64,000 nucleotides of DNA from the NCBI RefSeq assembly GCF_901827155.1, contig NZ_LR594659.1:2418001-2482000 (forward strand). Reading direction: 5' to 3'. Under the pieces are notes generated by a model that was not told where the DNA came from, ran no database searches, and saw nothing but the letters and a program-made list of their open reading frames with translations. Made by a program: the position numbers and the translations under genes. Shown in pieces: positions 23,290-64,000 of the stretch (its first letter is position 1; each line of letters begins with the position of its first letter). This DNA comes from Variovorax sp. PBL-H6. GTDB lineage: Bacteria > Pseudomonadota > Gammaproteobacteria > Burkholderiales > Burkholderiaceae_C.

Positions 23290-26118
23290 ATGAATCGCGT
23301 TTTCCAGGTGGTCTGGAACCCGAACCTGGGGCTGTGGTCGGTGGCTTCCGAACTGGCCCGAGGGCTGGGCAAATCCACCACGCAGGCATCGGCTGTTGCG
23401 GTGGTACTGCTGAGCATTGCCGGCACTGCGGCCGCCGATTGCGCTGGTCCCAGCGGCGGCGCCATCGCCTGCACCGCCGGCACACCCCAGACCTTCGTCG
23501 TGATCGGCGGCTACGACGCCACGCCCGGCGGCACGGTGGACGTGCAGCCCGGCGCCGTGATCAGCACCACCGACCTGCCCGCCATCAGCATGGGCGACAA
23601 CGGAACCATCCGGGTGCAACGCGGCGCGACGGTCGAGAACAACGCCGCGCCCGGCGCGACCGGCCATTACGGCACGGGCGCCAACACCATCGAATTCCGC
23701 GCCGGCACCACGCTCACGATCGAGGAGGGCGCCAGGGTGCTCTCCAACGGCACCGCACATGATGCGGAAGCGATCAACGCGCATGGCAGCGGCAACCTCA
23801 TCGTCAATCACGGCGAGGTGCGCTCGCAGGCCGGCGGCGCGGCCATCTGGCTCGAGCCCTCGGGCGGTTCGAACACGGTGGTCAACGGCGCGACCGGCGT
23901 CATCGAGTACAAGGGCGCGGCGGGCGACAACATCCTCGGCGTGTCCGGCAGCATGGCCGTCGATTTCACGAACCAGGGCCGGCTGATCGGCTCGCTGAAC
24001 TTCGCCGGCGGCGACGATGCGCTGCATGTGCACACCGGCTCCTCGATCACCGGCGGCATCGATGGCGGCAGCGGCAACAACCTGCTGACGCTCGATGGCA
24101 CGGGCACCGACACCTTCGCGCACGCTTTCTCGAACTTCCAGACCTTGGTGAAGCGCGACGCGGGCACCTGGACTTTCAGCAATGCGCTGCCGGGTTCGGG
24201 CATCACCAGCACGCGCGTGGCCGCGGGCACGCTGATCCTGGGCGCCGACGCCAGCAGCTACACCGGCAGCATGACGGTGGATGCAGGCGGCACGCTGCAG
24301 ACACCGGCCGAGTTTGCGCCGCTTGCGATCACCGACAACGGCGTGGTGCGCTTCGCCCAGCCGACCGATGCCGCCTACGCCGGCCTGGTGTCCGGCAGCG
24401 GCGGCATCGAGAAGACGGGCGCGGGGCAGCTGGTCCTCTCCGGCACCAATGCCTACAGCGGCGCGACCACGGTGGTGGCCGGGACGCTGAAGGCCGGCGC
24501 TGCGGGCATCTTCAGCGCCGACTCCGCGCACACCGTGGCGGCAGGCGCCACGCTCGACACCGGCGGCTTCGACCAGCGCGTGGCCGCGCTGCACAACGCC
24601 GGCACGGTGAGCCTGCTGAGCGCCAGCGCCGGCAGCACGCTCACTGTCACCGGCGCCTACGTGGGGCAGGGCGGCACGCTGAACCTGGGCATGGTGCTCG
24701 GCGGCAGCAACAGCCTGAGCGATCGCCTGGTGCTCAGCGGCTCCGGCGCCAGCGCCAGCGGGCACACGACGCTGCGCATTACCAATCTCGGCGGCCTGGG
24801 CGCGCTGACGACGGGCAACGGCATCGAGGTGGTGAGCGCGCGCAACGGCGCCACCACCACCGCCCAGACGACGCGGGACGCCTTCACCCTTGCCAACGGC
24901 CATGTGGACGCCGGTGCCTACGAGTACCGGCTCCACGCCGCCGATGCGCAGGGCGCGGGCGAGAACTGGTACCTGCGTTCCACGACAAGCGTGCAGCCGC
25001 CGGGCACACCGAGCGCGCCAGTGACGCCCGTCGCACCCGTCACGCCTGCAGAGTCCGCCGGCCCCGCGGCCCCTGCCGACGGGGCGGAACCTGCCAATCC
25101 CGCGGGCCCGTCCGACCCTCTCATCACCGTCAAACTGCCATTGGTTCTCGCGGAGGTGCCGACCTACCGCGCCGAAGTGCCGCTGTTCGCCGCGCTGCCG
25201 GCGCAGTTGCGCCAGGCCGATGTCGCGATGCTCGGCAACCTGCATCGCCGCATCGGCGACGAGGATGCGGCCGCGGCGGGCAGCGACCCCGCGCCGCGCC
25301 GCTCGTGGGCGCGAGCGGTCTACGGCGATCTGAACATTCGCCAGGACGGGATCGCCGCGGCGCAAAGCCGGGGCCATGTGAGCGGCCTGCAGGCAGGCAC
25401 CGACCTGCTGGCTACCGGCAACTGGCGTGCCGGCGTCTATGCGGGCTTCCTGGACGGCGGCGCCGACGTGAGCGGCAATGCGCGCGGGACCTTCGGGCGG
25501 GTCGGCTCCAACGACCTGCGCTCGCGCTATCTCGGCGCCTACGCCACCTGGATGGATGGCAGCGGGCTCTATGCCGACGCCGTGGTCCAGGGCGGCAGCC
25601 ATCGCTATACCGTGCGGCCCGACGGCAACGCCAGTGTGGCCGGCAAGGGCGACAGCTTCACGGCCTCGATCGAAACCGGCAAAGCGTTTGCGCTGACGGA
25701 ACGCTGGACCCTCGAGCCGCAGGCGCAACTGATCTACCAGCGGGCGCACTTCGACGCCGTGCCCATCGCCGGCGCCATCGTGCGCCAGGATGCCGATGCC
25801 GGCTGGATCGGGCGCCTGGGCGTGCGCATCAAGGGCGATTTCGCCACCGGCGCAGGCCGGCTCCAGCCCTATGCGCGGCTGAACCTGTACCGCGCGAACG
25901 CAGGCGCCGACGTCGCCGAATTCGTCGGCCCGGCGGGCTCGACCCGCTTCGCCACGGCCAGCGGCTACAGCGCGGCCGAGCTGGCGGGTGGCTTCACGCT
26001 GGCGCTGACGCCCGCTGCCAGTCTCTACGGCGAGCTGGGGCGCGTCTTCGCTGTCGGCGGCGATGCCAGGAACAAGTCCCCGGTGCAGGGCTCGGTCGGC
26101 GTGAAGCTGCGCTGGTAG
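23290..26118 (+). CDS. Classical (type Va) autotransporter with ESPR-type signal
   Basis: 942 residues. Extended signal region MNRVFQVVWNPNLGLWSVAS, the ESPR form used by large autotransporters, then a hydrophobic core ending IAGTAAA. The passenger is a beta-helix rich in Gly, Asn and Thr, with autotransporter-associated repeats (SGSGGIEKTGAGQLVLSGTN, AYSGATTVVAGTLKAG). A Pro-rich linker (about residues 575-615) precedes the C-terminal beta-barrel, beginning near SWARAVYGDLNIRQDG and ending VGVKLRW with the terminal aromatic residue needed for outer-membrane insertion. Ligand or adhesion role is unknown. Confidence 0.9.
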   Translation: MNRVFQVVWNPNLGLWSVASELARGLGKSTTQASAVAVVLLSIAGTAAADCAGPSGGAIACTAGTPQTFVVIGGYDATPGGTVDVQPGAVISTTDLPAISMGDNGTIRVQRGATVENNAAPGATGHYGTGANTIEFRAGTTLTIEEGARVLSNGTAHDAEAINAHGSGNLIVNHGEVRSQAGGAAIWLEPSGGSNTVVNGATGVIEYKGAAGDNILGVSGSMAVDFTNQGRLIGSLNFAGGDDALHVHTGSSITGGIDGGSGNNLLTLDGTGTDTFAHAFSNFQTLVKRDAGTWTFSNALPGSGITSTRVAAGTLILGADASSYTGSMTVDAGGTLQTPAEFAPLAITDNGVVRFAQPTDAAYAGLVSGSGGIEKTGAGQLVLSGTNAYSGATTVVAGTLKAGAAGIFSADSAHTVAAGATLDTGGFDQRVAALHNAGTVSLLSASAGSTLTVTGAYVGQGGTLNLGMVLGGSNSLSDRLVLSGSGASASGHTTLRITNLGGLGALTTGNGIEVVSARNGATTTAQTTRDAFTLANGHVDAGAYEYRLHAADAQGAGENWYLRSTTSVQPPGTPSAPVTPVAPVTPAESAGPAAPADGAEPANPAGPSDPLITVKLPLVLAEVPTYRAEVPLFAALPAQLRQADVAMLGNLHRRIGDEDAAAAGSDPAPRRSWARAVYGDLNIRQDGIAAAQSRGHVSGLQAGTDLLATGNWRAGVYAGFLDGGADVSGNARGTFGRVGSNDLRSRYLGAYATWMDGSGLYADAVVQGGSHRYTVRPDGNASVAGKGDSFTASIETGKAFALTERWTLEPQAQLIYQRAHFDAVPIAGAIVRQDADAGWIGRLGVRIKGDFATGAGRLQPYARLNLYRANAGADVAEFVGPAGSTRFATASGYSAAELAGGFTLALTPAASLYGELGRVFAVGGDARNKSPVQGSVGVKLRW

Positions 26119-26608: not shown

Positions 26609-26855
26609 GAGGCGCAGGGCTGCAGTTCAGTCGTTGAAGCGGAAGGAAAATCCCGCACGCACCACGGCATCGTTGCCGGTCGTGCCCACCCCCACGCTGA
26701 AGCGCGTACGTGCATCGGATGCCACGTGGACCACGCCGAGCGCGATGGCGCCATAGCCACGATAGCCGCCGATGCCGGCAAAGCCCGCCGTCTCGCCTGG
26801 CTTGAGGTCGGGCACGCCCTCTGCGAGGGCTGCGGTCATGGCCACACCGCGGTAG

Positions 26856-26987
26856 GCATTGGCGGCCACCGCCTGCAGTTCGCGCTGTGCATTGGCGGCC
26901 ACTGCCTGCAGATCGCGTTGGTTGTTGGCGGCCATCGTCTGTAGATCGCGTTGGGTGTTGGCGACCATCGTCTGCAGGTCCCGGTTC
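26856..26987 (-). repeat. Four tandem 33-bp units encoding the adhesin stalk
   Basis: Units start at 26856, 26889, 26922 and 26955, exactly 33 bp apart. Each encodes an 11-residue unit such as RDLQTMVANTQ or RDLQAVAANAQ. An 11-residue period fits a right-handed trimeric coiled coil. The units differ by a few bases, so the number could change by recombination. Confidence 0.85.
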
Positions 26988-27106
26988 GCATTGTTGGACA
27001 CCGATTGCAACTGGTCCATGTTCACCGCGTCGGTTCCGGCCGTGCCCGGTGCGAGATTGGTGATTTGTCGCTCTCCGCCCGACCGTCCGACGGAGACCGT
27101 ATTGGC

Positions 27107-28669
27107 ACGCGCCGCCAGCGACGAATCGCCCAGTGCGACGCTGTTGGGCGCCAGCGCCGTAGCGTTGGCGCCGTAGGCGGCGGCATTCGGCGATGCGACC
27201 TGCGCGTTGGCGCCGACGGCGATGGCGCCGGGGGCCCCGGACGCGATGCGCGACTGGGCGCCGATCGCGATGGCTGCCGGCGCCGACTCGGCGACGGCCG
27301 CGTGGAAGCCGACCGCCACGGCGCCCGGCGAGGCAACCTCCGCGCGGGTGCCGCCTACGAATGCGCCGTCGGCCGTGGCCCGCGCCTGATAGCCGATCAC
27401 CGTGTCGAGCGCACGCGCCTGGCTGCCGGCACCGATGGCGGTGCTGCCCGCTCCGAGCGCGGAAGCGGCATGACCCATGGCCGCGGAATCCGTGGCTGCC
27501 GCGTTGCTGGCCGCGCCCATGGCCGTGGAGCGCAAGCCGGTCGCCAACGCGGAAGCGCCGGCTGCGGTACTGTCGTCCTGCACAGCCTGCGAGCCCGTGC
27601 CCACGGCGCTCGCCTGGTTGCCCGACGCGAGCGCGTCGGCGCCATAGGCGCTCGCTTGCGCGCCGATGGCCTGCGAACTGCGGCCCGTTGCGGTTGTCCG
27701 CGTCATGCTGGCCAGGCTGCCCTGGCCCGACGCAGTGGCCCCGTCGCCCGATGCACGCGCGCCTTGTCCGGTAGCTGATGCGTCGTCGCCGTCCGCCAGG
27801 CTCGACTGGCCGGTCGCGGTCGCATTCGTGCCTGTGGCTCGGGCGCCTTGGCCGTTGGCCGTGGCGCCCACCGCCGTAGCGCGGCTGCTCTGGCCGGTTG
27901 CGGTTGCGCCGGCAGCCGTGGCGTAAGCACTCTGTCCGGTGGCCGTCGTGTTGACGTCCGACGCAACGCTCGCCTGGCCGCTGGCAGTCGCGTTCAGCGC
28001 GCTCGCCCGGCTGCCCTGACCGGTCGCGGTTGCATTCGTGTCCGTGGCCTGGGCGTTCTGGCCGGCAGCGGTTGAATTCTGCGCGGTTGCCTGGCTGGCT
28101 TGGCCCGCGGCGGTCGCAGCGGTCCCCGTTGCAGAGGCCCCCTGTCCGCTGGCCGAGGCGTCCTGCGCAGTCGCGCGGCTGCCTTGGCCCAAGGCAGTGG
28201 CACGAACCGCGGTGGCTTGTGCATCCTGGCCCCCGGCCGTGGCGTTCTCCCCGGCGGCACGGCTGCCCCCGCCGATTGCGGTGGTGCCGGTGGCGATGGC
28301 TTGGGCTCCCTGACCCGTAGCGGTCGCGCCCTGCGCAGTCGCGCGGCTGGCCTGGCCGACGGCCGTTGCACCGGTGGCCGTGGCGCGTGCGTCCTGGCCC
28401 GTGGCGGTGGTGTCGTCAGCGGTCGCGCGGCTGCCTTGGCCTACGGTGGTCGAGCGGGTGCCTGTGGCCTGCGCATCCTGGCCCAGTGCGGTGGCATCGG
28501 CCTGGGTCGCGCTGGCGCCGGCGCCAACGGCTGTTGCGCGGGCAGCGGTTGCCTGGCTTCCCGCTCCGACCGCGGTCGTGTCGCTTCCGGTTGCCTGCGC
28601 ATCGGTCCCCAGGACCGTGGAAGTCCCCGTGCTGGCGATGCTGCCATTGCCGATGGCAATTGCGTCCGG
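27107..28669 (-). repeat. YadA-type head repeats (about 37 x 42 bp)
   Basis: Degenerate 42-bp units, each coding a 14-residue left-handed parallel beta-roll turn. Typical turns read ATATGQGSRATAQG or ATAVGAGASATQAD, with the conserved x-A-x-G-x-x-A-x-A pattern. Central units have Thr-Ala-x-Gly-Gln and are more alike than the edge units, which suggests expansion by unequal exchange. Confidence 0.85.
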
Positions 28670-29577: not shown

Positions 29578-30972
29578 CTATGCGCGTGCGGTCCTCGAAG
29601 CGGTTTCGGGATCGGGCCGGTGGGCATCAGCGTCGTCGATGTCGCGCCCCGTGAAGTCCTTGAGCCACAGCAAGCCCAGCAGCGACACCAGCGTCATGCC
29701 GAGCAGGTACCACGCCGGTGCCAGCTTGTTGCCGCTCGCGCCCACCAGCCAGGTGCTGACAAAGGGCGAGAAGCCGCCGAAGAGTGCCACGCCCACGCTG
29801 TAGACCAGCGACATGCCGCTGGCGCGCACATGCTTGGGGAACATCTCCGGGAGCATCGTGATGGTGGGCACGGTCTGCACCACCAGCGCGGTGCTCAGCA
29901 GCCCGACCACGATGAACAGCACGGCCGGCGTGGGCGAGGCATTGAGCCACCAGAAAGCGGGGTAGATCATGAGCGCCATGGCGACGCGGCCCCAGACGAT
30001 CAGCGGCTTGCGCCCGACGCGATCGGAAGCGACGCCCACCAGCGGCGCCAGCACGAAGGACAGCAGGCCCGTGAGCACCGCGCCGAGCAGCGCCACCGTG
30101 GGCGGCAGGCCCAGCTCGCGCACCGCATAGGTCGGCATGTAGAAGGTCACCACATAGGCCGCGGCAGTGCCCCCGAGCACGCTGAGGATGGCGGCCAGCA
30201 CGGTGCGCCCGTGTTCGCTGCACACCTCGGCGATGCTGCTGCGCCGTTCGGTTGCGGCCGGCGTTCCCGCGGTCTCCAGCGATTCGTCGAGATGGCGGCG
30301 GATGTACATGCCCACCGGTGCGATCAGCATCCCGATGAAGAAAGGTACGCGCCAGCCCCACGCTTCCATCCCCTGAGGGCCCAGCGACGCGGTCAGGCCG
30401 CCGGCCACTGCCGCGCCGAGCAGGATGCCCAGTCCCTGGCTCGCGAACTGCCAGCTTGCCATGTAGCCGCGATTGGCGGGCGTCGCATGCTCGACCAGCA
30501 GCGTGGTGGAAGCGCCGACCTCGCCGCCCGCGGAGAACCCCTGGAGCAGCCGCGCCAGCACGATCAGGATCGGCGCCGCGACGCCGATCTGCGCATAGGT
30601 GGGTGCGAAGGCGATCATGGCGCAGCCCAGTGCCATCAGGAAGATGGTGAGCGTCATGGCCTTCTTGCGGCCCGCGCGGTCGGCGTAGGCGCCGATCACG
30701 ATGCCGCCCAGTGGCCTCATGATGAAGCCGACACCGAAGCTGCCCACCGTGAGCAGGAGCTGGCCGTAGCTGTTGAAGGTGGGGAAGAAGAGCTTGCCGA
30801 TTACCAGGGCCAGGAAGCCGTAGATGGTGAAGTCGAAGAACTCGAGGCCGTTGCCGATGGTGGTGGCGACGATGGTCTTGCGCCGGCTCATTGGCGTCGC
30901 TTCGCCTGTCGCTCCGGTGCGATGAGCCTTCGGAGCGGCCGTGAGGCTCGTGGGCGAATGTTGCTGGGTCAT
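29578..30972 (-). CDS. MFS transporter of the metabolite:H+ symporter (MHS) family
   Basis: 464 residues with 12 predicted membrane helices. Seen: TTIGNGLEFFDFTIYGFLAL in helix 1, RPLGGIVIGAYADRAGRKKA as the MHS loop motif, ARLLQGFSAGGEVGASTTLL, and MLPEMFPKHVRASGMSLVYS. This matches ShiA, ProP or citrate-type symporters. Substrate unknown, probably an organic acid or compatible solute. The first about 29 residues are unlike other MHS proteins, and their DNA (30885-30949) is a copy of the dispersed repeat seen at 40.6 and 54.7 kb. MSRRKT at residue 28 may be the ancestral start. Confidence 0.9.
   Translation of the reverse strand: MTQQHSPTSLTAAPKAHRTGATGEATPMSRRKTIVATTIGNGLEFFDFTIYGFLALVIGKLFFPTFNSYGQLLLTVGSFGVGFIMRPLGGIVIGAYADRAGRKKAMTLTIFLMALGCAMIAFAPTYAQIGVAAPILIVLARLLQGFSAGGEVGASTTLLVEHATPANRGYMASWQFASQGLGILLGAAVAGGLTASLGPQGMEAWGWRVPFFIGMLIAPVGMYIRRHLDESLETAGTPAATERRSSIAEVCSEHGRTVLAAILSVLGGTAAAYVVTFYMPTYAVRELGLPPTVALLGAVLTGLLSFVLAPLVGVASDRVGRKPLIVWGRVAMALMIYPAFWWLNASPTPAVLFIVVGLLSTALVVQTVPTITMLPEMFPKHVRASGMSLVYSVGVALFGGFSPFVSTWLVGASGNKLAPAWYLLGMTLVSLLGLLWLKDFTGRDIDDADAHRPDPETASRTARA
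30885..30949. repeat. Dispersed 60-bp repeat, diverged copy at the start of the MHS transporter gene
   Basis: Aligned by eye to the tandem copies at 40608, about 55 of 70 positions agree, including the ends GGCTCA and CTTCGGAGCGGCCGTG. On the coding strand it gives TAAPKAHRTGATGEATPMSR, parallel to TAAPKANSTEAEGEGTPVSR read from the 40.6-kb copies. It therefore supplies residues about 8-29 of the transporter. Confidence 0.7.
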
Positions 30973-40233: not shown

Positions 40234-40319
40234 TGAGGCGGTACCGGGAAACTCCGGGCCACGAGGTCATCCCGCCGGGTCAAGATGCGCACCAAGAACA
40301 ATTTTTGGGTGGAGCCGCC

Positions 40320-40607
40320 ATGCACTACGTCCTCGCACGCATTACCGTCAAACCCGAGGTCACGGAGCTCGCGAAATGCCTCCTTCTCGACCTAGTCGCC
40401 AAGTCGCGGCAGGACGCGGGCTGCATGGCCTACGAGCTTTTCCAGCAGACCCAGGCGCCCCACGTGTTCCAGACCATCGAGCAATGGAAGGACAGGGCCG
40501 ATGCCGAGGCGCACATGAAGACGCTGCATGTCGGCGCTGCGCTCGCCGCGGCGGGCCCGCTGCTCGCGGGCGTGCCCGAGATCGTCGCGTACAGCCGGCT
40601 CGCCTAG
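40320..40607 (+). CDS. Antibiotic biosynthesis monooxygenase (ABM) domain protein
   Basis: 95 residues, one dimeric ferredoxin-like ABM domain, as in YgiN-type quinol monooxygenases. Seen: MHYVLARITVKPEVTELAK, SRQDAGCMAYELFQQTQAPH with the conserved G-C/N-x-x-Y-E motif, and FQTIEQWKDRADAEAHMKTL. Start ATG at 40320 follows GGAGCCGCC. It stands between decayed genes and the tandem repeat but is itself intact. Substrate unknown. Confidence 0.85.
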   Translation: MHYVLARITVKPEVTELAKCLLLDLVAKSRQDAGCMAYELFQQTQAPHVFQTIEQWKDRADAEAHMKTLHVGAALAAAGPLLAGVPEIVAYSRLA

Positions 40608-40736
40608 CGGCTCACTGGAGTACCTTCGCCTTCGGCTTCGGTGCTGTTCGACTTCGGAGCGGCCGTGCGGCTCACTGGAGTACCTTCGCCTTCGGCTTCG
40701 GTGCTATTCGCCTTCGGAGCGGCCGTGCGGCTCATG
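40608..40736. repeat. Tandem pair of a dispersed 60-bp repeat
   Basis: Two head-to-tail units at 40608-40667 and 40668-40727 with only two differences, followed by a partial third start (CGGCTCATG). The shared core is ACCTTCGCCTTCGGCTTCGG and each unit ends CTTCGGAGCGGCCGTG. It begins directly after the stop of the ABM gene. Read on the minus strand the pair gives two copies of a peptide with core STEAEGEGTPVSR, in an open frame. Related copies lie at 54656 and 30885. Confidence 0.85.
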
Positions 40737-40782
40737 CGCGGCGCCTCCGCGCACGACGGCAAGGCCTTGTGGTGCTGGTGAG

Positions 40783-41580
40783 CTATCGAGGCATGTCCTG
40801 CGCTGCCACGAAGTGGTTGCGCAGGCAACCCAGACCGCTGATCCCGACCTCGACCACGTCGCCGGCCTTCAACTTGGGCGACTTGCCGTCGGTGCCCATC
40901 CAGATCACGTCGCCCGGGTAGAGCGTGAGGTAGCGCGACATGCGGCTGATGAAGGCGCGGATGCCGAACAGCATGTCGGCCGTCCGGAAATGGGTCCGTA
41001 CCTCGCCGTTGAGCCGTACGGTGGTCTCGGCCGCATCGAGGTCGAACTCGGTCTCGATCCACGGCCCCATCGGCTTGAAGGTGTCCGTGTTCTTGGAGCG
41101 CCAGAAGGTGCGGTCCGATGCCTGCCACAGCCGCTCGCTGACGTCGTTGCCGATGGTGTAGCCCAGCACGCACGAGAGTGCATCGGCTTCGCTCAGGTGC
41201 CTGGCCTGCTTGCCGATGACCACGACCAGTTCGCCTTCGTACTCGACCTGCTGCGCGTCCGACGGAATGACGACGGCCTCGCCATGTGCGACGAGCGCGT
41301 TGACTGCACGGTAGCCGATGTCGGCCTGCTTGGGCTCCGCGATTCGTTCGCCGGTCTGCTCGGCGTACTCGCGGATGTGCTTGACGTAGTTGAGCCCGGC
41401 CGCATAGAAGGTCCTCGGGATCAGCGGGACTTCGAGCTTCACATCGGCCAGCGCGTGCACCGCACCGGTCGGCTCGTGGGCGCCGAAAGGATTTCCGCGG
41501 ACTGCGCGGATGCAGTCGTCGGACTCGAGGATCCCATAGGCGCTGTCCGCGCCAGGGACAGAGAAATTGACCCACTTCAT
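40783..41580 (-). CDS. Fumarylacetoacetate hydrolase (FAH) family protein
   Basis: 265 residues, FAH fold used by hydrolases and decarboxylases in aromatic catabolism. Seen: YAAGLNYVKHIREYAEQTGE, metal ligands in VEYEGELVVVIGKQARHLSE (E-x-E) with a distal Asp, GYTIGNDVSERLWQ, TFWRSKNTDTFKPMGPWIET, and YPGDVIWMGTDGKSP. The start ATG is at 41580; the open frame further upstream overlaps the LysR remnant. It lies 14 bp after the stop of the Bug-protein tail, so the two were probably one operon before the deletion. Confidence 0.88.
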   Translation of the reverse strand: MKWVNFSVPGADSAYGILESDDCIRAVRGNPFGAHEPTGAVHALADVKLEVPLIPRTFYAAGLNYVKHIREYAEQTGERIAEPKQADIGYRAVNALVAHGEAVVIPSDAQQVEYEGELVVVIGKQARHLSEADALSCVLGYTIGNDVSERLWQASDRTFWRSKNTDTFKPMGPWIETEFDLDAAETTVRLNGEVRTHFRTADMLFGIRAFISRMSRYLTLYPGDVIWMGTDGKSPKLKAGDVVEVGISGLGCLRNHFVAAQDMPR

Positions 41581-41594
41581 TCGTCGCTCCCGGT

Positions 41595-41715
41595 CTATTC
41601 GGCCTTGATGTTGGCGCTGCGGATCAATTGCGCCCAGCGCGCGCGATCCTGCCCCAGCCACTCCCGGTACTCGGCGGGGCCGAGGTGTTTCAGTTCGGCG
41701 CCCAGCGACTTGAAC
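41595..41715 (-). pseudogene. C-terminal tail of a Bug (TctC-type) solute-binding protein
   Basis: The minus strand ends FKSLGAELKHLGPAEYREWL then GQDRARWAQLIRSANIKAE and a stop. This is the standard C-terminus of tripartite tricarboxylate transporter binding proteins, which are very numerous in Comamonadaceae. Upstream of about 41715 the frame is replaced by the complement of a LysR gene, so some 280 residues are missing. Confidence 0.8.
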
Positions 41716-42339
41716 CTGCATCGGTATCCGGACATCGAGGTCACGGTGGTCCACGATGACGGGCGCTCCGACCTCGTCACCGAGGCGCTCGATCTCTCGA
41801 TCCGGATCGCGCCCTCGCTCGAGGACGCGAGCTACGTCGCCCAGTCGCTCATGAAGTCGCCGCAGGTGGTGGTGGCCTCGCAGGCGTATCTGAAGCGGCA
41901 TGGCCGGCCCGCGACGCCCGCTGACCTGGCGCGCCACAACTGCCTGGTGCACATCGTGAAGTCAAGCGCCGGCGTCTGGAAGTTCGCCGGCGACCCGCCG
42001 CAGGAGGTGCGCGTTCGCGGTACGGTGCGCTCCAACCTGGGCGATGCCATCAAGCAGGCCGCGCTGCTCGGTACCGGCATCTCGCTCCATCCCTACTACA
42101 TGGTGTCCGAGGAACTGCGCGCCGGCACGCTCGAGGCGCTGCTGCCCGGCTCGGTCCCCGAGGAACTCGACATCTACGTCGTGTTCTCGACCCGGCGCAA
42201 CATGCCGACGCGCGTGCGGCATCTGCTGGAATTCCTCAAGGAGTGGTCGCGCGATCCACCCGACTGGGCCTTGCCCGCCGCGCCCGGCGCGACGCGTCGG
42301 GGGGCTTCGCGGACGCGGCCTGCGTCCAGTCCGCCTTGA
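41713..42339 (+). pseudogene. C-terminal half of a LysR-type regulator
   Basis: From about 41713 the plus strand reads HRYPDIEVTVVHDDGRSDLV, then LDLSIRIAPSLEDASYVAQS, QVVVASQAYLKRHGRPATPA, NLGDAIKQAALLGTGISLHP and IYVVFSTRRNMPTRVRHLLE. This is the effector-binding domain of LysR regulators from its second strand to the end. The HTH and linker are missing, and the sequence upstream is the Bug-protein tail on the other strand. A single deletion joined the two genes. Confidence 0.82.
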
Positions 42340-42416: not shown

Positions 42417-43664
42417 CTAGTCCTCGAAGGCGCGCGCCAGAATCGCCGCGAAGGTGTTTTTCGCATGAGCCAGCGCGGCGTCCTGCTGGAGCGCGATGGC
42501 ATGCAGCGCCGCGATTCGCTGTGCGAAGGCCTCCTGCAGGTGCGCCGCCGGCACCATCACACGCAGCGTGCGCAGCCGCTCCTTGGAAATGTTGGGCATC
42601 GAGGCGGCGGTCCCGCTCGCCAGCAGCTTCAGCCCCCTTCGCATGGCCGGCGCCCGCAGCAGCGCCCACAAATAGAGCGGATGCATGCCGGCGTCCGGAC
42701 GCAGGCGCAGCCGGAAGATCAGATCAGGCAGCAGGATCCGGCCCCGGGTCTCCCACACATAGGCCGGCGTGCCCACCAGGTCCAGCGTGTTCTTGCGGCT
42801 GATCAGCAGGTCGCCGGTGCGCACCTCGTTGCGCGGGTCCGGCTGCTCGGTCTCGGGCAGCGTCTTGTGGTCGGACTCGTCGTAGAGCGCGTTCTTCAGC
42901 GCGCTCAGCCGCAGCACGCCCCATTCGTTGCCGGTCTTGTGCCGATCATGGCAGCGCGGGCTCTTGCCGCTGTCGATGCCCTCGAGCAGCTCGCCCAGCT
43001 TCACCAGCGGCCATGCCTTCGGATTGCTCTGCGGGTCGCCGAACATGTCGGCCAGGAGGGCCGGCACCATCAGCTCGGTCAGCGCGCGCGCCCGGCGCCG
43101 CAGGCGCACCATGCTGTCGGCGCAGCCGAGCAGGTCGACCAGGCGGCGCTGCCAGGCCAGTTCGGGCACCCGGATGGCAGCGGCTGCCATGTACGCGGTC
43201 GGCACGCGCTGCTGGCCGGCGGTTCCGGTGAGGCTGCGCCTCGCCGCGTTGCGGAAGCGCTGCTGGCGCAGGAAGAAGTAGATCCATTCGGGCAGCACCG
43301 CCTCGCGGGCGCGCAGCACGTGAAACTCGGTCGAGCCGAAACCGCGGCCACCGGCCAGGTCGCGAGCAAGGGCGACCTTGCCGTTTTCCATGCACGGCGT
43401 GATCTTCGCGAAGAGAACGTCGCCGTCGGCAAAAGGGGTATAGCCCCTCCTCACCTCGCCGAAGGGCCGCACCAAGCGCTGGGCGATGGTGGCGCTGAAC
43501 TCGTCCACCGCGGCCATCGGCACGAAAGCGACCTCGCTGTGCTCCTGCAGGCCGTGGTCCTTCGGCAGCCTGGGATTGATCTCGCAGACCTCGCCCAGCG
43601 TGGCGAGGCGGGCGGGTGGTCTGGTCGAATCACGTTGGCCTTTGGCCAGCCCTGCAATGCTCAT
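42417..43664 (-). CDS. hsdS: Type I restriction-modification specificity subunit
   Basis: 415 residues, two target-recognition domains. First half: RLATLGEVCEINPRLPK, FVPMAAVDEFSATIAQRLVR, FADGDVLFAKITPCMENGK. Second half repeats the pattern: WPLVKLGELLEGIDSGKSPR and VRTGDLLISRKNTLDLVGTP. Each is followed by a conserved helix (QRRLVDLLGCADSMVRLRRR; LQEAFAQRIAALHAIALQQD) that spaces the two half-sites. It would direct HsdM to a bipartite sequence. It starts 38 bp after hsdM. Confidence 0.92.
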   Translation of the reverse strand: MSIAGLAKGQRDSTRPPARLATLGEVCEINPRLPKDHGLQEHSEVAFVPMAAVDEFSATIAQRLVRPFGEVRRGYTPFADGDVLFAKITPCMENGKVALARDLAGGRGFGSTEFHVLRAREAVLPEWIYFFLRQQRFRNAARRSLTGTAGQQRVPTAYMAAAAIRVPELAWQRRLVDLLGCADSMVRLRRRARALTELMVPALLADMFGDPQSNPKAWPLVKLGELLEGIDSGKSPRCHDRHKTGNEWGVLRLSALKNALYDESDHKTLPETEQPDPRNEVRTGDLLISRKNTLDLVGTPAYVWETRGRILLPDLIFRLRLRPDAGMHPLYLWALLRAPAMRRGLKLLASGTAASMPNISKERLRTLRVMVPAAHLQEAFAQRIAALHAIALQQDAALAHAKNTFAAILARAFED

Positions 43665-43702
43665 CGAATAACTTCCCTGGTCTTGTTTCTGATCTTGTCA
43701 TT

Positions 43703-45370
43703 TCACGGATCCAGCTCCGAGAGCAACGCGCGCAGCATCTCGATCTCTTTCTCGATCTCGGCTTCGATGGCGGCGAGTTCGTCGAGGAGCTCGCGCGGGT
43801 CCTGGTGTTCGATCTGCGAGGGGCTCATCGGCCGGTAGCGGCTGGCCGAGAGGCCGAAGTCGTTCGCGCGCAGCGCCTCTGCATCGGCGAACCACCATTT
43901 CTCGTGCCATTCGGCGGCGGGGTCGCGCGCCTGCCAGCGCGCCCATGCCGCCTCGCGTCCGATGAAGGCCTGCGCGAGCGCGGGCAGGTCGTCGGACTCG
44001 ATGGGCGTGTCGTGGTTGGCGTCGAGCCGGTAGCCGTCGTCCTCGGCATGCAGGAACATCACGCGTTGCGTGCGGCCGCCCCGGCGGAAGAAGAGCACCG
44101 AGGTCTTCACGCCCGAATAGGGCTGGAACACGCCTCCCGGCAGGCTCATCACCGCCTCGACGCAATGCTGCTCGATCAATTGGCTGCGCAGCTCGCGGTG
44201 CGCGATCGTGGAACCGAAGAGCACGCCCTCGGGCACCACCACCGCGGCCCGGCCGTCGGGGCGCAGGCTGTCGAGCATGTACTTGAGGAACAGCAACTCG
44301 GTCGCGCTGCTGCTGCCGAGCTTCACCTCGTCGACGATGCGGTCCTTGTCGATGCGGCCGGAGAAGGGCGGATTCGCGAGCACGACGTGGAAGCCTTCGC
44401 CGGGCATGCCCAGCCGCGTCTTGACCTTTTCATCGAGCAGTGTCGTCAGCACATTGCGCTGCAGGATGCGTACATGGGCCAGGCCGCGCAGCGTGAGGTT
44501 CATGGTCGCCAGCCGCACCATCTTCGGGTCGACGTCGTTGCCGAAAAAGCTGCCGCGCTGCAGCGTGGCAAGCTGTGCATCCGAGAGCAGGTCGCCCATG
44601 CCCCGACGGTGAGTCTTGCCCTCGAGCTCGGCTTCCACGATGCTGTCTGGAGAAGAGTTGGCCAGCCGCATGTGGTTGTAGGCCGCCACCAGGAAGCCGG
44701 CGGTGCCCGCGGCCGGGTCGTAGACGGTCTCGCCCACCTTCGGATCGATCATCTCGACGATGGCGCGGATCACGTGGCGCGGCGTGCGGAACTGGCCCAG
44801 CTCGCCGGCCTGCTTCATCTGGCGCAGCACGTGCTCGAACAAGTCGCCCTTGGTGTCCGCATCGGCCTGGTCCAGGCGCAGGTCGCTGACCAGGCGCACG
44901 ACTTGCGTCAGCACCGTCGGCTCGTCGATGCCCAGGCGCGCGCCGCGCATGAAGTCATGGGCGGAGGCCTCGCCGATCTCGGCGAAGAAGGGAAAGACCT
45001 CGTCGCGCACGAAGCGCACCAGCGCCTCGCCCGACAGCGCCTGCGACCACCACGACCAGCGAAAGCGGCTGCGCGGAACGCAGGTCTGGCCGGAGTGCAG
45101 GATGGTCACCGACTGCATTGCATCGGGCGCGCCCGGCACATGCGCGTTGGCCGGGTTGCGCAGCTCCCATTCGCCGTCGAACAGGCTGCGGAAGGGAACG
45201 TCGAGCACCTCCGCGCGCGCCTTCGCGTCGGCGTCGAGGCCCTGGACCAGGTAGAAGAAGAACAGGAAGCAGAGCTGTTCGGTGTTGCCGACGGGATCCG
45301 GATAGCCGCCGCCAAAGAGGTAGTCGCGAATCTGGTCGATCGACCGTCGCATGTCGGCAGTCAGGGGCAT
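43703..45370 (-). CDS. hsdM: Type I restriction-modification DNA methyltransferase subunit
   Basis: 555 residues, N6-adenine methyltransferase. N-terminal helical HsdM domain (RRSIDQIRDYLFGGGYPD, FFFYLVQGLDADAKARAE), then GQFRTPRHVIRAIVEMIDP, SAM motif DPAAGTAGFL (218-227), the catalytic NPPF (333-336), and C-terminal coiled coil EIEKEIEMLRALLSEL. All key motifs are intact. With HsdS it should methylate DNA. No hsdR lies on either side: upstream is a divergent aspartoacylase gene, downstream only remnants. Confidence 0.92.
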   Translation of the reverse strand: MPLTADMRRSIDQIRDYLFGGGYPDPVGNTEQLCFLFFFYLVQGLDADAKARAEVLDVPFRSLFDGEWELRNPANAHVPGAPDAMQSVTILHSGQTCVPRSRFRWSWWSQALSGEALVRFVRDEVFPFFAEIGEASAHDFMRGARLGIDEPTVLTQVVRLVSDLRLDQADADTKGDLFEHVLRQMKQAGELGQFRTPRHVIRAIVEMIDPKVGETVYDPAAGTAGFLVAAYNHMRLANSSPDSIVEAELEGKTHRRGMGDLLSDAQLATLQRGSFFGNDVDPKMVRLATMNLTLRGLAHVRILQRNVLTTLLDEKVKTRLGMPGEGFHVVLANPPFSGRIDKDRIVDEVKLGSSSATELLFLKYMLDSLRPDGRAAVVVPEGVLFGSTIAHRELRSQLIEQHCVEAVMSLPGGVFQPYSGVKTSVLFFRRGGRTQRVMFLHAEDDGYRLDANHDTPIESDDLPALAQAFIGREAAWARWQARDPAAEWHEKWWFADAEALRANDFGLSASRYRPMSPSQIEHQDPRELLDELAAIEAEIEKEIEMLRALLSELDP

Positions 45371-53136: not shown

Positions 53137-56100
53137 ATGAGCCCGTCGCGCCCCTTCATTGAGCGGCCGGTGGCGACCGGCCTGCTGATGCTCGCCATCG
53201 TGCTCGCGGGCCTCGTGGGCTTCCGCTTCCTGCCCTTGGCCGCTCTGCCGCAGGTGGACTACCCGACCATCCAGGTGCAGACCCTTTACCCCGGCGCCAG
53301 CCCCGAGGTGATGAGCCGCACCGTCACTGCACCGCTGGAGCGCCAGTTCGGGCAAATGGCGGGGCTGGACCGCATGAGCTCGGTGAGCTCGAACGGCGTG
53401 TCCATCGTCACCCTGCAGTTCGCGCTCGACCAGACGCTCGACGTGGCCGAGCAGCAGGTGCAGGCCGCGATCAACGCCGGCGGTTCGCTGCTGCCGGCCG
53501 ACCTGCCGGCGCCGCCGGTCTATGCCAAGGTCAATCCGGCGGACGCGCCCATCCTGACGCTCGCCGTGAGCTCCAGCACCATGCCGCTGACCGAGGTGCA
53601 GAACCTCGTCAACACCCGCCTCGCGCAGAAGATCAGCCAGGTGGCCGGCGTGGGCCTGGTCTCGCTGTCGGGCGGGCAGCGCCCGGCGGTGCGCATCCAG
53701 GCCGACACCAATGCGCTGGCCTCGGTGGGCATCGGGCTGGACACGCTGCGCACCGCCATTGCCGCGGCCAATGCCAACAGCGCCAAGGGCAGCTTCGACG
53801 GGCCGCAGCGCGCCTACACCATCAACGCCAACGACCAGCTGGTCGCCGCGGCCGACTACAAGAACCTGATCGTCGCCTGGAAAAATGGCGCGCCGGTGCG
53901 CATGAGCGATGTCGCTCGCGTGGTCGATGGCGCCGAAAACACGCAACTCGGTGCCTGGGCGGCCGCGCGCGCGGAATCGAAGGACAAGCAGGACGCGGCC
54001 GCCACCCCGGACGCCGGGATCTACCCCGCGATCATCCTCAACGTGCAGCGCCAGCCCGGCGCCAACGTGATCGGCACCGTCGACGCCATCAGGAAGCAAC
54101 TGCCCGAGCTCGAGGCTGCGCTGCCCGGCGCGCTCAAGGTCGAGGTGCTGAGCGACCGCACCACCGGCATCCGCGCCTCGGTCCATCACGTGCAGCTCGA
54201 GCTCGCCTTGGCCGTGGTGCTGGTCGTGCTGGTGATCTTCCTGTTCCTGCACAGCGTGCGGGCCACGGTCATCGCCAGCATCGCGGTGCCGATCTCGCTG
54301 ATCGGCACGCTGGGCCTCATGTACCTGCTGGGCTACAGCCTCAACAACCTGAGCCTGATGGCGCTGACCATCGCCACCGGCTTCGTGGTGGACGACGCCA
54401 TCGTCATGATCGAGAACATCGCGCGCTACCTGGAGGAGGGCGAGCCGCCGTTTGCGGCCGCGCTCAAGGGCGCGACGCAGATCGGCTTCACCATCATCTC
54501 GCTGACGGTGTCGCTGGTCGCGGTCCTCATTCCGCTGCTCTTCATGGGCGACGTGGTGGGTCGGCTGTTCCGCGAGTTCGCGGTCACGCTGGCGATCACC
54601 ATCCTGATCTCGGCCGTGGTCTCGCTCACGCTCGTGCCGATGATGTCGGCGCGCTGGCTCACTGGATTACCTTCGCCTTCGGCTTCGGTTTTCGCCTCGG
54701 GAGCGGCCCAGCGGCTCAAGCCGCAGGCCGAGGAGGGCGGCCGCTTCGGTGCGCGCGTGCAGCACTTCTTCGAGCGCGTGATCGCACGCTACGACACCTG
54801 GCTGCAATGGGTGCTGCGCCACCAGCCGCTGACGCTCGTGGTGGCGGCGCTGACATTGGCGTTGACGGTGCTGCTCTACATCGCCATTCCGAAGGGCCTG
54901 TTCCCCACGCAGGACACCGGGCAGCTGCAGGCGCGCATCGAGGCGGCGCAGGATGTGTCCTATGCGCGCATGGCCGAGTTGCAGAAGGCCGCGGCCGCGG
55001 CCATCCTGGCCGATCCCGATGTGCGCAGCCTCAGCTCGGTGGTGGGTGTGGATGCAGCCAACAACACGGCGCTCAACACCGGGCGCATGCTGATCAACCT
55101 GCGCTCGGCCCGCGACGACCAGGCGGCCGTGATGCAGCGCCTGCGCGAGCGCGTGAACACGATGGCTGGCGTGACGCTCTATCTGCAGCCCACGCAAGAC
55201 CTGACGATCGACGCCGAGACCGGCCCGACCGAGTTCCGCGTTGCACTCGAAGGCGTGGACACCACGGTCGTGAATGGTTGGGCGAAGAAGCTGGTCGAGC
55301 GGCTGCGCGACACGCCGCAGGTCCGCAACGCGACCACCGACGCGGGTGCGCAGGGCCTGGCCGCTTACGTCGACATCGACCGCAACACCGCCTCGCGGCT
55401 GTCGGTCACGGCCAGCTCGGTCGACGATGCGCTCTACAGCGCCTTTGGCCAGCGCATCGTCTCGACCATCTTCACCGAGACCAACCAGTACCGCGTGATC
55501 CTGGAGGCGCAGCGCGAGGGGCTCGCGTCACCGCAGGGGCTGGGCAACCTGCAGCTGCGCACCGGCGCCGGCACGCCGACGCCGCTGGCCTCGCTGGCCA
55601 CCGTGCGCGAGCAGCTCGCGCCGCTGTCGATCACGCGCGTGGCGCAGTACCCGGCCGCGACGGTGGGCTTCGACACCGCGCCGGGGGTCGCGCTGGGCAA
55701 GTCGGTCTCGGCGATCCGCGAGGCAGCCAAGGAGATCGGCTTGCCGGCGAGCGTGCGGCTGAACTTCCTGGGCGCGGCAGGCGCCTACGAGAGGTCGCTC
55801 ACCAACCAGCTCTGGTTGATTCTTGCCGCGGTGGTGTGCGTGTACATCGTGCTGGGTGTGCTCTACGAGAGCTACATCCATCCGCTGACCATCTTGTCGA
55901 CGCTGCCCTCCGCCGGCGTGGGCGCGCTGCTGGCGCTGATGGTGACGGGCAACGACCTGGGGGTGATCGGCATCATCGGCATCATCCTGCTGATCGGCAT
56001 CGTGAAGAAGAACGCGATCATGATGATCGACTTCGCGATCGACGCCGAGCGGCACGAAGGGAAGTCACCACGGGAGGCGATCCACCAGGCGGCGCTGCTG

Positions 56101-56328
56101 CGCTTCCGGCCGATTCTGATGACGACGCTGGCTGCGCTGTTTGCGGCGCTGCCGTTGATGTTGGGGTGGGGCGAGGGGGCGGAGTTGCGGCGGCCGCTGG
56201 GCCTGGCGATCTTTGGTGGCCTGGTCGTGAGCCAGGTGCTGACCTTGTTCACGACGCCGGTGATCTATCTGGCGTTTGATCGGATGGGGCGCAGGTTCGG
56301 GGGGAAGCGTGACGCTGCGCACGGCTGA
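53137..56328 (+). CDS. mdtB: RND multidrug efflux permease, MdtB-like
   Basis: 1063 residues, HAE1-type proton-driven pump with 12 membrane helices. Seen: [60 protein letters not shown] with the proton-relay Asp pair in helix 4, [20 protein letters not shown], and [18 protein letters not shown]. MdtB and MdtC form a mixed trimer. Between helices 6 and 7, residues about 507-527 ([20 protein letters not shown]) are encoded by a copy of the dispersed 60-bp repeat, in frame. ATG at 53137 is chosen; GTG at 53131 is also in frame. Confidence 0.93.
54656..54718. repeat. Dispersed 60-bp repeat, in-frame copy inside mdtB
   Basis: GGCTCACTGGATTACCTTCG and the following CCTTCGGCTTCGG match the tandem copies at 40608 almost base for base. 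The copy ends GGGAGCGGCCCAGCGGCTCA. It does not break the frame. On the minus strand it also gives the [13 protein letters not shown] peptide, the same relation as in the 40.6-kb copies. Confidence 0.82.
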
Positions 56329-62350: not shown

Positions 62351-64000
62351 ATGAACAAAACACATCGCAGCCTTTGGAACCCCGCGCTGGGTGCCTGGGT
62401 GGCTGCTCCCGAGAACGCGCGTGCGCGAGGCAAGCGCGGCGCTTCGCGCATCGGGAGGGCTGGCGCACTGATGGCCGCCCTGTGCTGCGTCGTCATGCCT
62501 GAAGCCCAGGCGTGTACGGCAGCCAGCACGGCCCAACTGGCTGCCTGTATCGCGGGCAACGATACGGTCATCGATCTCTCGGCATCCATCATCCTGGACG
62601 CGCAGTTGCCGGTGATTGGGCGAAGCGTGACGATCAACGGCAACGGGCACAGCCTCGATGGCGCGGGGCAGTTCCGGGGCTTCTTCATCGGCGCGGGAAC
62701 CACCACGGTCGATCGCTTGACGATGCAGCACTTGCTGGCGCAGGGCGGTCAGGGCGGAACGGAATCCTTTCCAGGCGGTGGCGGCATGGGCGCTGGTGGT
62801 GCGGTGTTCGTGGCCGGTGGGGCGGGGGCCAACCTGAACGACGTGGTCGTCATCGACAACCGTGCCGCGGGTGGCAATGGCGGGAGCAGGGTGTTCAACG
62901 GAGGCGGCAGAGCCGGCGGCGGTGGAATGGGCGGCGATGGCAGCAGCGGCACTCCCGACTATGGCGCAGGTGGCGGCGACGGTGGCGGTGGCTTGTTCGA
63001 CCCCGGGCTGCCGAGTCCGATCGGGGGCAGCATCGGCGGCAAAGGCGGCGGCCCCGCGGGCGGCACCGGCACCGGCGTCAATGGCAACAACGGCGGTTTG
63101 TACAGTGGCGGCGCAGGGGGCGGGCGCGACGAGGCTTCCGGCGGAAATGGCGGGCTCGGCGGCGGCGGCGGTGGCAGCGGCGCTGGCGGCAATTTCAGCG
63201 ATGGAGGCAACGGAGGGTTCGGTGGTGGCGGCGGTGGCGGCTACAGCCGGGCAGGACGCGGCGGCTTCGGCGGTGGAGGGGGCGGCGGCAACGGTCTTGA
63301 CGCGGCGGTCGGGGGCTTCGGCGGTGGCAATGGGGGCATCGGCACGTTCGGCATCGCGGGCGGAGGCGGTGCGGGCATGGGCGGCGCCATCTTCGTCATG
63401 GATGGCGGCTCGCTCACCTTGGGCGGCAATACCGAGGTGCGCGGCAACGGCGTCTCTGCCGGCGAGAGCGGCGGCGGTGTTGCGCAAGCCGGCTCGGCCT
63501 TCGGCGCCGGCATCTTCATGCAGGGCGCGGGCAGCACGATGGCCTTTGTGCCCGCTGCCGGCAACACGCAGACCGTGACCGACACGATCGCCGACCAGAA
63601 CGGCTCCGGCGGCACCGGCACCATCGGCCTCGACAAGCGCGGCGCCGGACGGCTGGTCCTGTCGGGCGCCAATACCTACAGCGGCGGCACCAGCGTCAAT
63701 GGAGGCGCACTGTCGATCTCCGCGGACCAGAATCTCGGCCAGGCTTCGTCCGTGCTGACCCTCGACGGTGGCACGCTGCAGAACACCGCAGCCTTCACAA
63801 CGGCGCGCGCCATCAACCTGGGAGTCGCCGGCGGCAGCTTCCAGACCGATGCCGACCTGAGAGCCACCGGCGTCGTGGCAGGAACTGGTGGCTTGATCAA
63901 GACCGGTCAGGGCACGCTGACGCTCGCCGGCACCAACACCTACAGCGGCGGCACCACGATTTCCGGCGGCGAACTGTCGGTGGCGTCCGATGCGAATCTC
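62351..64000 (+). CDS. Glycine-rich autotransporter with ESPR signal (3' end outside window)
   Basis: 550 codons up to the window edge with no stop. Signal: MNKTHRSLWNPALGAWVAAP (ESPR), then a hydrophobic core AGALMAALCCVVMPEAQA. A short pectin-lyase-like part (NDTVIDLSASIILDAQLPVI, SVTINGNGHSLDGAGQFRGF) leads into a very Gly-rich stretch (about residues 130-345, runs of five or six Gly). Then come autotransporter beta-helix repeats: LDKRGAGRLVLSGANTYSGG and LIKTGQGTLTLAGTNTYSGG. A beta-barrel is expected downstream of the window. The role is surface display or adhesion (inferred). Confidence 0.88.
   Translation, partial: MNKTHRSLWNPALGAWVAAPENARARGKRGASRIGRAGALMAALCCVVMPEAQACTAASTAQLAACIAGNDTVIDLSASIILDAQLPVIGRSVTINGNGHSLDGAGQFRGFFIGAGTTTVDRLTMQHLLAQGGQGGTESFPGGGGMGAGGAVFVAGGAGANLNDVVVIDNRAAGGNGGSRVFNGGGRAGGGGMGGDGSSGTPDYGAGGGDGGGGLFDPGLPSPIGGSIGGKGGGPAGGTGTGVNGNNGGLYSGGAGGGRDEASGGNGGLGGGGGGSGAGGNFSDGGNGGFGGGGGGGYSRAGRGGFGGGGGGGNGLDAAVGGFGGGNGGIGTFGIAGGGGAGMGGAIFVMDGGSLTLGGNTEVRGNGVSAGESGGGVAQAGSAFGAGIFMQGAGSTMAFVPAAGNTQTVTDTIADQNGSGGTGTIGLDKRGAGRLVLSGANTYSGGTSVNGGALSISADQNLGQASSVLTLDGGTLQNTAAFTTARAINLGVAGGSFQTDADLRATGVVAGTGGLIKTGQGTLTLAGTNTYSGGTTISGGELSVASDANL

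Follow-up and report, generated by a model that had tools for sequence, protein, structure and literature searches.

Among the described systems closest to the repeat analyzed here are the mycobacterial interspersed repetitive units (MIRUs), reportedly the work of Supply et al. in 1997. In a 2025 review (PMC12548453), MIRUs are presented as repeats with start codons as their insertion sites, where they couple genes by a 4-nt overlap. The Betaproteobacterial repeat element (BRE), described in Bordetella by Hot et al. in 2011, is given in that paper (PMC3110155) as a repeat of 75-91 bp with unknown function, and two BRE repeats are placed there next to lexA in B. pertussis. REPs, as listed in PMC2817692, are extragenic palindromes with GTAG- or GTGG-type ends, which alternate in orientation in BIMEs.

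Here, we analyzed a repeat array at 40.6 kb in a 64,000-nt stretch of Variovorax sp. PBL-H6 DNA (the window). We consider the repeat, with a probability of about 80%, to be a non-autonomous mobile element of the Burkholderiales that inserts just 3′ of the tetranucleotide NTGA and carries an NTGA of its own at its 3′ end. A literature search on the element itself returned nothing, but led to BRE (PMC3110155) and to MIRUs (PMC12548453). The view in the initial annotation that no named element has this unit is correct only in part: a relative, BRE, was named in 2011, and the architecture is MIRU-like.

Results

A 60-nt unit dispersed through the genome

On its coding strand, the repeat unit extends from NTGA to NTGA, with ∼56 nt between them; measured from NTG to NTG, units are mostly 56-68 nt long. 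The young version in the window's genome has 60 nt and reads ATG AGC CGC ACG GCC GCT CCG AAG GCG AAT AGC ACC GCA GCC GAA GGC GAA GGT ACT CCA (G/A)TG A. The initial annotation had described two 60-bp units directly after the stop of the ABM gene, related copies near 30885 and 54656, and a minus-strand frame that is open in every copy. The tandem and both outlying copies were recovered (Table 1), and all four window units keep this frame open, two of them containing ...NSTEAEGEGTPVSR. The unit length of 60 bp was likewise right, but the natural borders run from NTGA to NTGA on the minus strand.

The family is indeed dispersed, as had been proposed. Its 21-bp core, with up to three mismatches, occurs at 49 places in the genome, versus six for a reversed control pattern, and at three places in the window, versus 0.01 expected by chance; the 30.89-kb copy lies outside these three and was picked up by a second pattern. 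A sequence-only profile built from 18 units (R1) identified 82 units at E ≤ 0.01 across the chromosome, and these merge into 67 sites of one to three units, either single or in 60-bp tandems. A second profile that includes the hairpin (R2) likewise identified 82 units at this threshold. The repeat is real and genome-wide, and its numbers are those neither of a family with few further copies nor of a single recent duplication.

Table 1. Features of the repeat and its neighboring genes in the window
Feature	Positions	Strand	Details
Unit 1	40676-40735	-	60 nt, begins ATGAGCCGCACGG; R1 match C1:2458672-2458735, E 1.5e-21
Unit 2 and closing GTGA	40612-40675	-	unit 40675-40616 (60 nt), GTGA 40615-40612; R1 match C1:2458612-2458671, E 4.9e-18
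Free 43-codon ORF from both units	40604-40735	-	ends at a TAG overlapping the ABM stop of the other strand
ABM-domain gene	40305-40607	+	Pfam PF03992; converges on the array
Fumarylacetoacetate-hydrolase (FAH) family gene	40783-41697	-	Pfam PF01557 on 40786-41697; ORF 40783-41952; same strand as the array and upstream of it
57-bp copy	54659-54715	-	3′ of TTGA (54719-54716); in frame and antisense inside the AcrB-family gene
AcrB/AcrD/AcrF-family gene with 19-codon insertion	53164-56325	+	Pfam PF00873, 985.6 bits
Diverged copy	30888-30951	-	R2 match C1:2448888-2448951, E 3.8e-7; read in frame (...TPMSRRKTIV...)

The 40.6-kb array is a displaced and atypical copy, lying between the converging FAH and ABM genes, and its 43-codon ORF has no downstream gene in its frame. 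The array is absent from the same-genus genome G223; in G005 and G014, its place is taken by a single shortened unit and ∼1 kb of extra sequence that, by eye, resembles an oxidoreductase gene. Rfam returned no match at E ≤ 1 in window positions 40400-40900, and nothing above threshold in 13 loci, where the one sub-threshold match was to an IRES (E 0.037). The 30.89-kb copy is located at the start of a gene that is transporter-like by eye.

The window also contains other repeats. Nine copies of a 50-nt repeat, spaced at 84, 126, or 168 nt (multiples of 42), occupy positions 27705-28594, perhaps within a gene for a repetitive surface protein; at 26848-27012, a 33-bp repeat occurs five times head to tail, with 70-85% identity to the first copy; and a 78-nt repeat, autotransporter passenger-like by eye, occurs in two distant places (24392-24469, and 63615-63692 with 63879-63956). 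On the minus strand at 42417-45370, a gene pair resembles, by eye, the specificity and modification subunits of a type I restriction-modification system.

Distribution across genomes

Profile R1 matched at least 35 of 37 genomes of the genus and at least 59 of 150 in the family (own genome included in both), as well as, weakly, at least one of 24 genomes of other families. With R2, at least 28 of 43 genomes in genus g225 were matched and, under strict filters, at least 14 of 300 in the order, spread over six families. Since few candidates were scored per genome in searches over more than 40 genomes (86 for the genus and other families, 35 for the family, 17 for the order, and 121 for g225), these counts are lower bounds. 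Among the matches listed for a pattern of the first 31 nt in named genomes were Bordetella, Achromobacter, Rhodoferax, Methylibium, Piscinibacter, Rhizobacter, Ramlibacter, Rubrivivax, Ideonella, and Aquabacterium. A plasmid search gave matches in two Variovorax records, and a phage search gave no match to the element.

Position at gene stop/start junctions

At 49 of the 67 own sites, and in 38 of 45 units from other genomes (34 of 39 without six at repeated junctions), the frame of the upstream gene is closed by the TGA of the first NTGA. By comparison, 45 of 230 element-free co-directional junctions in the own loci show such an overlap (Fisher p 1e-15 for the own sites and 1e-16 for the other genomes), a control that depends on a crude gene caller, whose codon-usage score was derived from the fetched loci. 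Of the 45 units, 28 are from genomes of the same genus and 17 from other genera of the family; they were extracted from 47 loci, two of which (L083 and L092) gave no unit and were dropped. On the downstream side, a coding frame starts at the last NTG at 42 of the 67 own sites and in 35 of the 45 other units, the gene being reached either in frame, through an extension of ∼20 residues, or via a mini-ORF with a 4-nt overlap. Insertion usually breaks neither neighboring gene.

An independent annotation agrees with this arrangement. In plasmid 4 of Variovorax sp. SRS16 (locus L475), PhnJ ends at position 1204 and PhnK starts at 1201, so that the two overlap by 4 nt with the PhnK start inside the element; a second Variovorax plasmid is listed with a match under the same phn gene names. 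The impression that the peptide is familiar from the N-termini of predicted Variovorax proteins is borne out by this annotated phnK, which begins in a copy. At 18 of the 67 own sites, among them the 40.6-kb array and the copy lying antisense within the AcrB-type gene, the upstream frame does not end at the first NTGA, so start/stop overlaps are not the sole landing places. Part of the junction bias may reflect selection after insertion.

A covarying hairpin in older versions

The first hairpin of the unit, with NTGA at its foot, reaches at least 6 bp in 17 of the 45 other-genome units, compared with a mean of 2.2 and a maximum of 8 units in 200 shuffles. A second hairpin was extracted in 44 of these 45 units, before a Shine-Dalgarno-like GGAGG or GAAGG, and its arms vary (GCGC/GCGC, GCCC/GGGC, GTGC/GCAC, GCCT/AGGC, GCC/GGC, and GGC/GCC). 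Its cells are paired in 155 of 158 cases, and none of 2000 shuffles did as well, in a count that leaves out one of the 45 units and in which the first G-C pair is forced by the extraction pattern. Own single units pair less well, with 84 of 92 cells paired in the 28 units extracted out of 56, a value that 13 of 2000 shuffles reach.

In 19 units chosen by hand from the 45, each with an 11-nt hairpin 2 and with outer ACC/GGU pairs over the Shine-Dalgarno-like sequence, 93.4% of cells are paired. The covariation in these units is 0.250, a value that 0 of 500 shuffles attain (0.115 in shuffles), and slid versions give 0.069 at most. Two of five covariation measures were no better than shuffles, namely, both-sided pair changes (3, reached by 91 of 500) and further pair types (5, reached by 478 of 500). 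Older versions of the element carry a covarying hairpin over the Shine-Dalgarno-like sequence. The consensus that RNAalifold derived from a MAFFT alignment of 33 of the 45 units was weak (-3.89, covariation 0.21), owing to the variable length of hairpin 2. Dinucleotide shuffles fold as well as whole units do. A REP-type palindrome had been considered as well and was dropped, since the young unit alone folds no better than shuffles.

Empty sites, insertion direction, and tandem growth

Syntenic comparison with two same-genus genomes, G223 and G005, covered 21 of the 67 own sites in 27 comparisons. Fifteen sites are filled in the relatives compared, some by decayed copies, and six are empty in at least one relative. 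Four of the empty sites are clean, with unaltered flanks and borders that are ambiguous by ∼6-10 nt of shared sequence: 1045638 and 1159149 in G223, 2532923 in G005, and the 54.66-kb copy in both. This window copy is a precise insertion of 57 bp: the site reads TTGAGCCAGCG in the empty G005 and TTGAGCCGCTGG...CCAGTGAGCCAGCG in the window, with the phase ambiguous over the shared TGAGCC. The insertion adds 19 residues, read from the other strand, to the AcrB-family protein; the copy, although present as claimed initially, is antisense within a gene rather than intergenic. The hisI-hisE junction, matched in 60 of 61 genomes, lacks the element in 27 of the 30 loci read; of the filled loci, G000 has two 60-nt units, G005 has one, and G223 has one 62-nt unit.

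The direction of insertion can be read from sites with a known empty counterpart and a left NTGA unlike the right one. At all three such sites (1159149, 2472659, and hisE, the last compared with G014, the nearest empty locus), the left NTGA is that of the empty site, suggesting that the target stays on the left and that the element brings the right one. The form ATGA accounts for the left NTGA in 48 of 56 arrays and for the right one in 15 of 41 (p 1e-6). Together, these comparisons suggest that the element inserts 3′ of a target NTGA and carries the right NTGA with it. Tandem growth is seen at site 1316802: G000 and G223 have an old unit only, and in G005 a young one stands at the NTGA of this old unit. 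In loci of five genomes of the genus (L066, L067, L068, L070, and L073), an old copy precedes the same gene, seemingly at the same junction, and the ATGAG start reads CCGAG in L068 and L073; this common junction is a candidate for a long-kept site.

The element is presumably moved by an enzyme. One possibility, to which we give limited credence, is that the repeat is REP-like and owes its mobility to the only RAYT (REP-associated tyrosine transposase) of the cell, through single-strand hairpin transposition into NTGA. The target kept on the left, the right motif supplied by the element, and the target contained in the hairpin foot all fit this explanation. Moreover, exactly one Y1_Tnp gene is present in 8 of 10 carriers, and the best match of the own gene is NCBIfam REP_Tyr_transpos (71.9 bits, below the cut-off of 80). 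However, no Y1_Tnp gene was found in G440, with at least 21 R2 matches, or in G080, with at least 10; within ∼1.5 kb of the eight Y1_Tnp genes, just one element copy, in G223, matches strongly, three other nearby matches being weak (E 0.03-0.24); and the element has no GTAG-type foot. The RAYT-like gene is only a candidate mobiliser. This single gene (L414, C1:1335236-1335562) has close relatives in G005 and G223, seemingly in the same place.

Somewhat less probable is recombination or gene conversion between TGAGCC microhomologies without any transposase. It would account for the TGAGCC at both borders of the 54.66-kb insertion, and slippage could also expand tandem copies. Conversion needs flanking homology, though, so that 67 dispersed sites, together with the unaltered flanks at clean empty sites, are hard for it to explain. 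It is highly improbable that no gain took place and that the repeats are old intercistronic elements which selection has maintained and relatives have lost. In favor of this are the 15 sites, of the 21 compared, that are filled in the relatives, if occasionally by a decayed copy; against it are the 27 of 30 hisE loci without the element and an AcrB-type gene without gap or scar in two relatives.

Reading frame without peptide constraint

The 45 other-genome units comprise 27 mini-ORFs with a TGA overlapping the next NTG, 16 open in-frame fusions, and two that are neither (22, 15, and 2 at distinct junctions), and the corresponding frame-length bias is significant (p 3e-5). Among the 67 own arrays are 22 open fusions, 16 mini-ORFs, four in neither frame, and three with an internal stop; a right NTGA within 9 nt is missing from 14, and a left NTGA from eight. 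For the 59 own arrays with a left NTGA, the length leaves a remainder of 0 on division by three in 37, of 2 in 17, and of 1 in 5.

The element peptide predicted at the start of fused downstream proteins is MSRTAAPKANSTAAEGEGTP. In the 31 clean 60-nt units (of 82), changed codons number 33 synonymous, 85 non-synonymous, and 0 stop, as compared with 45, 123, and 3 among the possible single changes, and changes are spread alike over the codon positions (37/44/47). The peptide shows no codon-level constraint, and selection on it is not the reason why the frame is open. Ten proteins were scanned from the 26 in-frame reading frames listed; the fusions include PRA-PH (hisE, phosphoribosyl-ATP diphosphatase), UbiX-family, amidase, DsbC-like, PqiA, MFS, cytochrome c, and Fer2 oxidoreductase proteins, as well as ABC parts (including a branched-chain amino acid ABC ATPase). 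It is accordingly very unlikely that the repeat is an N-terminal tag, targeting, or solubility module spread for its usefulness: the frame is open in 43 of the 45 other-genome units and many proteins begin with the peptide, but the substitutions follow the ratio of possible changes, the 27 mini-ORFs elsewhere are fused to nothing, and the ten scanned proteins share no common theme.

Discussion

The proposed NTGA-targeting mobile repeat would spread by the following route. NTGA is the common 4-nt operon overlap, in which a stop TGA is joined with the next start NTG, so that insertion there would spare the upstream stop and give the downstream gene a new start. Element length, mostly a multiple of three (giving an N-terminal extension) or two more (giving a mini-ORF to the next NTGA), would keep the downstream gene within reach of ribosomes. 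With its closing NTGA, the element would offer a fresh target, which would explain growth in 60-bp tandems. In older versions, the second hairpin covers the Shine-Dalgarno-like sequence that precedes the last NTGA; ribosomes translating the mini-ORF would open this hairpin and so couple the two genes. Within this scheme, the location, the empty sites, the frame bias, the covariation, and the lack of peptide constraint are direct observations, and insertion 3′ of the target, coupling through the hairpin, and movement by an enzyme are inferred.

A more specific picture, which we put forward tentatively and hold to be doubtful as a whole, is that of a mobile translational-coupling cassette: a transposable hairpin that targets NTGA overlaps and brings a hidden ribosome-binding site opened by its mini-ORF, with an in-frame version in one lineage through which dozens of proteins have acquired new N-termini, with the cell's single RAYT acting in trans to move it, and with BRE as a sister version for another site.

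As regards significance, insertion at start/stop overlaps, known from mycobacteria, is also used by a repeat in many Burkholderiales, and the orphan BRE repeat gains a context. Further, odd predicted Variovorax N-termini are explained, and annotation should treat such N-termini as passengers. Together with their matched empty sites, the copies also offer numerous natural experiments in translational coupling.

With BRE, the element shares the tandem and dispersed arrangement, the GC-richness, and the occurrence in Burkholderiales. In the lexA locus (L402) of G579, a B. pertussis-like genome with 236 matches to the IS481 primer, we found two 82-bp tandem units. The first shows 23 of 24 identities with an element unit in L066 (best score 43, versus a mean of 22.9, an sd of 3.1, and a maximum of 37 in 300 shuffles), the second scores 38, equal to the shuffled maximum of 38, and the young window type scores only 23; by eye, the 3′ end also resembles GCGCAGCGCGG(A/G)GG. 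In contrast to the mostly 56-68 nt of the element, BRE units have 75-91 bp in the original description and an extra hairpin. At lexA, they also have TTTTGCC/GGCAAAA arms beside a T-run, where the element has ATGAGCC arms, and no NTGA ends. As the element has neither the unit length nor the middle hairpin of BRE, it is a relative and not BRE itself; from these alignments, BRE is most likely a relation with an extra hairpin and another site. The BRE-like units in the lexA locus (L402:872-1031) abut a T-run after a GC-rich stem, as if BRE targeted terminators.

With MIRUs, the likeness is one of architecture. The position at start codons with the upstream stop kept is shared, as is, in part of the family, the mini-ORF with a 4-nt overlap, and by this analogy the element appears to work as MIRUs do. 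It differs in belonging to another phylum and in adding an in-frame fused version and a covarying hairpin. REP/RAYT and IS200/IS605 systems resemble it as short non-autonomous hairpin DNA, and, as here, no clear target duplication is known for IS200/IS605 elements; unlike REPs, the element units read have no GTAG-type foot and lie at gene starts. Rickettsia palindromic elements also insert in frame into coding genes, but they are found within genes rather than at their starts, are palindromic, and are not known to have NTGA ends. New here are the rule of insertion, the version fused in frame, the hairpin, and the connection of BRE-like repeats with start/stop sites.
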